Assembly: GCF_003609645.1 (NCBI RefSeq)
Contig: NZ_MCIB01000001.1
Location: 434,001-498,000 of the forward strand
Reading direction: 5' to 3'
Source of the DNA: Thermohalobacter berrensis
GTDB lineage: Bacteria > Bacillota > Clostridia > Tissierellales > Thermohalobacteraceae
DNA length: 64,000 nucleotides
The notes under the pieces are model-generated. The model did no database searches, was not told the DNA's origin, and saw only the letters and a list, made by a program, of their open reading frames with translations. Positions 46,126-48,005 of this stretch are shown here, one piece after another. Position numbers and translations under genes: made by a program. Each line of letters starts with the position of its first letter. Position 1 is the first letter of the stretch.

Positions 46126-47481
46126 TTAATTTATCAAACTTTCATCTATTTCATATCCTAATTTTTTTAAATAATCATAGTTCAAATATTTAGGTAGTTT
46201 CCTTTTTGCATCTTTTACAGATTTTATAGCAAAGTCTAAATTAACCATATTTTTATTTGAATAAATTTCATAATTTTCTCTTAAATGTGGTGGTGTGCTA
46301 ATAAGCATTATAGTATTTGCTCCAGCTTGTAATGCCATAGCTTGAGCATCTGGATTTAATGAGGCAATAGCCGTAGTTGCTGGTAAAAAAACATGTTGAC
46401 ATACTATTCTTGAAATGGCTACAACTTTAAGTGTTAGATTTAAATCACCTGGTTTGTAATTTTCGTAAGGAGTACCTTTAGCGGGTAAAAATGGTCCAAA
46501 ACCTATCATATGAATTCCATAGTCTCTCTGGAATAATATATCTTCTGCAATATCCTCTAAAGTTTGATTTGGTAATCCTATCATTCCTCCTGACCCTGCT
46601 CTGATACCAGCTTCTTTAATTAATTTAGTATGTTTTACTCTTTTATTAAAATCATCGTCAGGATGTATCTGCTCAAATAATTTTCTACTTGCTGTTTCAA
46701 TTTTTAATAAATAATTATTAACTCCTGCTTCACTAAATAGTTTATATTCATTTTCATCTCTTATACCAATACTTAAAGTTATCCCTAATCTATATCTTTC
46801 TTTTATCTTCTTTACTATTGAAAGGATTTTTTCTGTATCATAATATGGATCTTCACCTGATTGTAAAATTACTGTTTTTATTCCTATTTTATAAAGTTTA
46901 TCAACTTCTTTTAAAATTTCTTCTTCACTCATTCTATATCTATGAGTTTTATTTTTCCTCCTTATTCCACAATAGTTGCAATTTTTCTTACAGTAATTTG
47001 AAAATTCAACAGCTGCTCTTATTTCAATTCTATCACCAACACACTCTTTTCTTATTATATCTGCCATTTTAATTAAAGCCTTATACTCTTCTTTCTCAGT
47101 TTTTAATAAGTATAATATATCTTTCTTTTCTAAATCTATATTGGCTTCAACTTTTTTAATAATCTCTTTAAAATTATCTGTTATATTTAAATTATAAATT
47201 TGGCTTAAATCATATTTGTATTTGTCTTTTAAAGAAAAAATTCCTTCATACTCAATATTATTAGATTCAACAATTTCTTCTACTTTGGAAATATCTTTTT
47301 TATCAAATTTAATTGCTGTAGTACAAACCCCTCCAAAACCTTTTGGAGTTGGGATTAAATCATTTTCAATTTGTAATTTGTCCATTAGATCTTTGCTATA
47401 TAACATCTGAGACTTAGATTCACAGACTAATATATAAGGTTCTGTAATGTTATTTTTAATAAATTTATCTATAAGAGACAT
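46126..47481 (-). CDS. hydE: DUF3343-HydE fusion: hydrogenase maturase radical SAM enzyme
   Basis: A 451-residue protein in two parts. Residues 15-82 match the DUF3343 (putative Se/S carrier) domain: YILVCESKSQMLYSKDLMDK, a PTPKGFGGVCTTAIKFDKK stretch with the conserved cysteine C53, and NIEYEGIF. Residues 120-450 are a HydE-type radical SAM enzyme: EIRAAVEFSNYCKKNCNYCGIRRKN with CX3CX2C at 164/168/171, VILQSGEDPYYDTEKI, AGIRAGSGGMIGLPNQT and LPATTAIASLNPDAQA. HydE helps to build the [2Fe] part of the [FeFe]-hydrogenase H-cluster from a cysteine-Fe complex. Normal HydE is about 350 residues, so the extra N-terminal domain is a real addition. No hydF, hydG or hydrogenase gene is in the window. 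Confidence 0.9.
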   Translation of the reverse strand: MSLIDKFIKNNITEPYILVCESKSQMLYSKDLMDKLQIENDLIPTPKGFGGVCTTAIKFDKKDISKVEEIVESNNIEYEGIFSLKDKYKYDLSQIYNLNITDNFKEIIKKVEANIDLEKKDILYLLKTEKEEYKALIKMADIIRKECVGDRIEIRAAVEFSNYCKKNCNYCGIRRKNKTHRYRMSEEEILKEVDKLYKIGIKTVILQSGEDPYYDTEKILSIVKKIKERYRLGITLSIGIRDENEYKLFSEAGVNNYLLKIETASRKLFEQIHPDDDFNKRVKHTKLIKEAGIRAGSGGMIGLPNQTLEDIAEDILFQRDYGIHMIGFGPFLPAKGTPYENYKPGDLNLTLKVVAISRIVCQHVFLPATTAIASLNPDAQAMALQAGANTIMLISTPPHLRENYEIYSNKNMVNLDFAIKSVKDAKRKLPKYLNYDYLKKLGYEIDESLIN

Positions 47482-47655: not shown

Positions 47656-47663
47656 CACCGAAC

Positions 47664-48005
47664 ACGAGCAAGTCTATAAGCCGAGTTCTGTATTAGACAG
47701 TCATCTATCTAGGCCTATTGTTACCAATAGGCTCCAGCGACCTACCATATGGGACAGTAGCGGGCCACTACTTTTTATGTCCCTAACTTGGTCTTGCTCC
47801 GGATGGGGTTTACAGAGCCAACTAGTCGCCTAGCTGCTGGTGAGCTCTTACCTCACCTTTCCACCCTTACCACATGAGACATGTGGCGGTATATTTCTGT
47901 TGCACTTTCCTTAGGGTCGCCCCCACTGGGTATTACCCAGCATCCTGCCCTATGGAGCTCGGACTTTCCTCATGCATAATGCATGCGACTGTCTGACTTA
48001 CTCGT
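47664..48005 (-). ncRNA. rnpB: RNase P RNA (bacterial type A-like)
   Basis: The catalytic RNA of ribonuclease P, which matures tRNA 5' ends. The ends pair as P1: ACGAGTAAGTC at the 5' end (48005-47995) with GACTTGCTCGT (47674-47664). Conserved pieces, read on the minus strand, are GAGGAAAGTCCG near the 5' side, GGGGGCGACCCTAAGGAAAGTGC in the middle and AGAACTCGGCTTATAG at the 3' side. The TGGGTAATACCCAG hairpin fits the ancestral A-type fold used by most Clostridia. About 342 bases. A promoter lies at 48032-48060 and a terminator directly behind it; the true 5' end may be up to 20 bases further upstream. Confidence 0.97.

Follow-up and report, generated by a model that had tools for sequence, protein, structure and literature searches.

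A DUF3343 domain fused to the [FeFe]-hydrogenase maturase HydE in Thermohalobacter berrensis and other anaerobic bacteria of one phylum

An open reading frame of Thermohalobacter berrensis raises the question of what a DUF3343 domain does at the N-terminus of a radical SAM enzyme of hydrogenase maturation. To our knowledge, DUF3343 has no demonstrated function. The frame lies on the minus strand at 46126-47481 of the window, the 64,000-nucleotide stretch of DNA that was analysed, and has a stop-free translation of 451 aa with an ATG start (stop codon included in the coordinates), as expected of a single intact gene. The original prediction described it as a fusion of DUF3343 to HydE, and models for both parts were recovered within this one ORF. 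PF11823 (Se_S_carrier) matched residues 16-82 (47236..47436, minus strand; E 6.8e-16, 57.9 bits vs a cut-off of 25), and the NCBIfam HydE model TIGR03956 matched residues 108-416 (46234..47160, minus strand; 294.3 bits vs a cut-off of 254.6). The two motifs singled out beforehand were also confirmed in the translation, namely C53 within GGVCTTAIKF (codon at 47323..47325, minus strand) and the CX3CX2C radical SAM cluster motif at C164/C168/C171 (46969..46992, minus strand).

On sequence grounds the gene product is a genuine HydE, a radical SAM enzyme in the maturation of [FeFe]-hydrogenase, and it is predicted to carry out complex B conversion. Pfam Radical_SAM matched residues 158-315, and the best solved structural match was Thermotoga maritima HydE (Z 47.4, 1.7 A). 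Identity to the T. maritima enzyme (PDB 3ciw/3iiz/7o1o) was ~40% over residues 103-433, and the fused protein retained its CX3CX2C, its YxxY lid and its T268/T269 and M224 positions. The three cysteines of CX3CX2C were invariant among the fusions. The YxxY lid, a HydE motif described earlier (PMC6212873), corresponds to Y404/Y407 (46261..46272, minus strand; T. maritima Y303/Y306) and was conserved in all 86 HydE that we aligned. The NCBIfam models for PylB, BioB, HydG, and ThiH all scored well below their cut-offs on the window protein. PylB and BioB share the radical SAM barrel with it (Z 37.6 and 36.9, respectively), yet the protein reached only 171 of 348 bits for the curated PylB cut-off and 128 of 225 bits for that of BioB. 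The fused form also resembles known HydE in its operon partners and its association with hydrogenase, and differs from it by the added DUF3343 domain.

The fusion recurred with the same full-length architecture in independently assembled genomes. Among 60 related genomes searched, nine others in three families encoded full-length homologues with 66-78% identity end to end. The named genomes with the fusion included those of Caloranaerobacter azorensis, Sporosalibacterium faouarense, Anaeromonas spp., Thermosediminibacter litoriperuensis, and Halonatronum saccharophilum, and the scan of named genomes also returned one Tepidanaerobacteraceae MAG. Sampling ~390 genomes each from the class and from the phylum yielded five and 19 additional fusion genomes, respectively. 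With duplicates removed, the set comprised 38 distinct fusions from ~16 families of one phylum. Four of the other fusions were scored against both domain models, and each exceeded the cut-off for TIGR03956 and that for PF11823 (41-69 bits vs a gathering cut-off of 25). That two neighbouring genes were joined by a frame, assembly or gene-calling error has practically no probability left, since 38 distinct proteins from many assemblies share the architecture and nothing at the window gene speaks for such an error. One fusion ORF elsewhere does carry a false extension: the 589-aa ORF at L163:1468-3237 reads across a run of N, which makes its long C-terminal part an artefact of assembly, and the desulfurase adjacency in that genome (see below) consequently spans a gap. 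No plasmid-borne fusions were found, as no plasmid record covered 80% of the query. Fused HydE is widespread among anaerobic bacteria of one phylum and apparently undescribed; the literature that we searched contained no published link between DUF3343 and HydE.

The fused protein was the sole one above the HydE cut-off in the window genome, which also contained HydG and HydF together on contig 40 and seven matches to Fe_hyd_lg_C, the [FeFe]-hydrogenase large subunit. Immediately upstream of this hydE, at 47661-48004 of the window on the minus strand, is the RNase P RNA gene rnpB (RF00010, 312 bits), so that hydE here adjoins rnpB and stands outside the hyd operon. In relatives from many families the fused hydE was located tightly between hydG and hydF, and all 38 further fusion-bearing genomes tested encoded [FeFe]-hydrogenase. 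Genomes G528, G563, and G668 had an unfused HydE in addition to the fused one, and the two forms thus coexist in at least these three. In the same three genomes and G798, the fused hydE and a desulfurase gene were found near the origin, away from hydG and hydF (L182-L185). A Rosetta-stone search of 47 unfused genomes found no standalone DUF3343 on coordinates neighbouring hydE, hydG or hydF.

A tree of 124 HydE domains placed the fused proteins on one side of a single branch. In a careful tree of 65 rows, the fused clade had UFBoot/SH-aLRT support of 87/96, rising to 100/100 when its two unfused sisters (L104 and L166) were included. Because the fused proteins form one clade, a single fusion event is the simplest account of their origin. 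We compared the HydE residues of 34 fused and 52 unfused proteins and found that ten of ~325 positions discriminated between them, defined as one residue present in at least 90% of fused and at most 15% of unfused sequences. Four of these (A157, N256, A373, and V413) were not shared by the unfused sisters. N256 (46714..46716, minus strand) aligns with R155 of T. maritima HydE and was Asn in 34/34 fused and 0/52 unfused proteins; the unfused position held Arg in 51 cases and Lys in one, the sister L104. A157 (47011..47013, minus strand), at the T. maritima I56 position, was Ala in 32/34 fused proteins and Leu, Ile or Val in unfused HydE. Three further differences from the T. maritima enzyme were common to the fused proteins and both unfused sisters, namely Lys at R159, Ala at H233, and Gln at R279. 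We infer from the alignment that the Arg-to-Asn swap at the R155 position was fixed when the domain was gained, and it may represent an adjustment of HydE to DUF3343. As the fusion arose once, the swap counts as a single evolutionary coincidence followed by strict conservation and not as many independent ones. Clustering of the fusion-specific HydE sites at the bottom of the barrel was not significant (p 0.39).

No fusion-specific residues were detected in HydG or HydF at the thresholds used. HydGs of fusion genomes were scattered among HydGs from unfused genomes, and the tree required no fewer than seven changes. Within Halanaerobiia, the HydGs next to fused HydE (L064 and L176) grouped with HydGs from Orenia and Halanaerobacter, which have unfused HydE. 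Given these mixed partners, fused and unfused HydE appear, from their gene trees, to have replaced each other inside the same kind of operon. A comparison of L064/L176 with L078/L080 in Halanaerobiia showed fused and unfused hydE in the same position, flanked in both cases by closely related hydG and hydF genes.

Within the DUF3343 domain, C53, P44, and P46 were identical in 38/38 distinct fusions and the remainder diverged down to ~30% identity, a level of conservation at these three residues that exceeds chance. The domain resembles the PF11823 family in exceeding the gathering score and in keeping the PxP...C signature with its invariant cysteine. Elsewhere in the searched genomes DUF3343 stood alone, in open frames of 73-138 aa. 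In the alignment, C53 fell in the column of the conserved Cys in 31/31 such proteins, all of which had Cys-Gly, whereas the fused domain had Cys-Thr, Cys-Ser, Cys-Ala or Cys-Asn in 34/34. The fused domains clustered apart from the standalone proteins with 98/99 support and one long-branch exception in a 90-column tree, and the same tree gave no pointer to the Clostridium parAB-locus copies as donor. Previous work tied DUF3343 to Sec lyase and YedF near selenium genes, and sulfur or selenium carriage by the family is putative, having been proposed from gene context (Zhang et al. 2015, PMC5322559). AlphaFold2 returned a confident two-domain model of the whole protein (pLDDT 94.8, pTM 0.92). The pTM suggests that the relative placement of the DUF3343 and HydE domains is confidently predicted, and the two would then pack in a fixed manner. 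The isolated domain had a predicted beta-alpha-beta-beta-alpha-beta fold with weak ferredoxin-like matches (best Z 7.4). Foldseek gave no fold relatives with E below 0.001, and no sequence relatives of the domain were found in the PDB. Matches this weak provide no clue to the function of DUF3343.

Clustering of the genes around fused operons brought out an aminotransferase class V protein. The scored copies belong to the TIGR01977 cysteine desulfurase family (467-531 bits vs a cut-off of 377, NCBIfam), and in 41 aligned copies the PLP lysine was present in 41 and the cysteine of the catalytic column in 39. Of the 16 families with the fusion, ten had a TIGR01977 gene close to the fused operon. 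It was on the same strand and within ~210 bp in nine of these and ~1 kb away in the tenth; the six other families, the window's among them, had no TIGR01977 neighbour within ~8 kb. Around unfused hydE, including both sister proteins, TIGR01977 was absent within 8 kb at 22/22 loci from 17 families (fused 10/16 vs unfused 0/17 families, Fisher p 9e-5). The enzyme itself was encoded in 54/55 genomes, fused or unfused alike, so adjacency and not genome-wide presence is the informative feature. Most fused operons occupied the near-origin mnmG-rsmG-parAB region, the locus in which Clostridium has TIGR01977 and a standalone DUF3343 as neighbours. The adjacency may therefore be inherited in large part, with synteny that is partly ancestral, and the shared near-origin locus partly explains the desulfurase neighbour. 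Adjacency was also kept outside the near-origin region in three families (f70, f176, and f156). Pairs of a desulfurase or Sec lyase with a small carrier have been described (TIGR01977, YedF, DUF3343; PMC5322559), and the fused operons often carry the same type of partner, here with the carrier domain fused to a radical SAM hydrogenase maturase.

What the domain could contribute depends on the chemistry of HydE, whose step is among the least settled in H-cluster assembly. HydE adenosylates and reduces the HydG product [Fe(Cys)(CO)2(CN)]- on the way to a two-iron precursor with bridging sulfides, and in the systems studied the bridging sulfur has been assigned to the cysteine of complex B (PMC12752695, PMC11736057). 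The defined in vitro systems run on ordinary HydE without any DUF3343 (PMC12752695, PMC11736057). An outside source of sulfur is thus not required for the basic reaction, and the fusion by itself is no proof of sulfur delivery.

The original prediction had proposed that the added domain may deliver a sulfur or thiol group, and this claim stood in part. In its favour are the protein's own DUF3343 domain, the unfailing cysteine, and a desulfurase neighbour seen only with fused HydE; sulfur delivery as such is not shown by the fusion. Our preferred reading, held tentatively and at somewhat below even probability, is that the DUF3343 domain acts in cis via C53, most likely as a sulfur or thiol relay that the desulfurase would supply. 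An unvarying C53 and a neighbour confined to fused operons fit with such a carrier. The TIGR01977-type cysteine desulfurase would pass sulfur to the C53 thiol as a persulfide, and C53 would hand it on to the HydE barrel while [Fe(Cys)(CO)2(CN)]- is being converted to the two-iron precursor. In a less specific version, C53 may handle a sulfur-bearing substrate. The assignment of the bridging sulfur to complex B in the systems studied, the partly ancestral synteny, the six fused families without the neighbour, the near-universal desulfurase, and the lack of fusion-specific sites in HydG and HydF count against a relay. A bolder claim, that the bridging sulfur (or selenium) in this HydE clade does not come solely from the cysteine of complex B, with the desulfurase loading C53 and C53 feeding the HydE reaction, strikes us as improbable; if true, sulfur would reach the H-cluster by a second path.

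Two other roles for the domain deserve serious weighing against a relay. DUF3343 could dock or gate the iron complex rather than handle sulfur, a possibility that we consider rather unlikely. The C53 thiolate would then transiently bind complex B arriving from HydG, or hold one Fe(I) half-product in place while the next is being formed and so help dimerisation to [2Fe]E. A holding ligand is chemically sensible because HydE receives complex B directly from HydG and joins two Fe(I) units (PMC12752695, PMC11736057). The conservation of the other known active-site residues, the appearance of R155N and A157 along with the domain, and the confident packing in the AlphaFold2 model also agree with docking. 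However, docking leaves the recurrent cysteine desulfurase neighbour unexplained, unfused HydE performs the same reaction alone, and the HydG partners are polyphyletic without matching changes. We regard it as unlikely that the domain is structural or regulatory, stabilising or capping the barrel or serving as a redox sensor, with C53 needed for folding or oxidation sensing and having no role in sulfur or iron transfer. The HydE of most lineages functions without DUF3343, ferredoxin-like folds such as the one predicted here are common and its structural matches are weak (Z at most 7.4), and the confident AlphaFold2 packing would suit a cap equally. Against a scaffold, C53, P44, and P46 stay invariant in a domain that otherwise diverges to ~30% identity, as expected of a functional loop, and standalone DUF3343 proteins likewise keep this Cys throughout.

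The role of fused HydE is testable by a single-residue change or by domain removal in existing maturation assays. This natural union of HydE with DUF3343, marked by a single cysteine that never varies and by a HydE substitution confined to the fused form, offers a direct handle on the origin of the bridging sulfur and on the role of DUF3343. Should the domain improve HydE turnover, it could aid heterologous [FeFe]-hydrogenase production.

Selenium delivery was not supported. Such a role would have DUF3343 supply selenium for a selenium-containing H-cluster precursor or a selenoprotein. It draws on the association of DUF3343 with selenium genes (PMC5322559), on the selenocysteine lyase model SclA being second best for the neighbouring enzyme (below the SclA cut-off), on the presence of SelD and a YedF-DUF3343 pair in the window genome, and on the fact that selenium-substituted [FeFe]-hydrogenase can be obtained in vitro (PMC13339137). 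However, no natural metal cluster is known to contain selenide (PMC13339137), and among 21 genomes surveyed, the window genome and 14 more had SelD above cut-off and six lacked it. Five of the six carry the fusion (G273, G143, G329, G380, and Halonatronum) and the other is the unfused sister genome G232. Because SelD is missing from five fusion genomes, selenium-specific delivery is unlikely as a general role, and we assign this explanation a very low probability.

Standalone DUF3343 genes occurred twice more in the window genome. At L135:5468-6342 (contig 13), a standalone DUF3343 comes immediately after YedF (TIGR03527), a pair known from selenium genes. The second copy, at L136:7701-10019 (contig 12), has a CCG motif and lies between HGD-D, a 2-hydroxyglutaryl-CoA dehydratase-type protein, and its partner, a BadF-type ATPase. 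The selD of the window genome (G000:C11:51525-52448) contains an in-frame TGA, as does that of most SelD-bearing genomes searched, and SelD is thus probably itself a selenoprotein.
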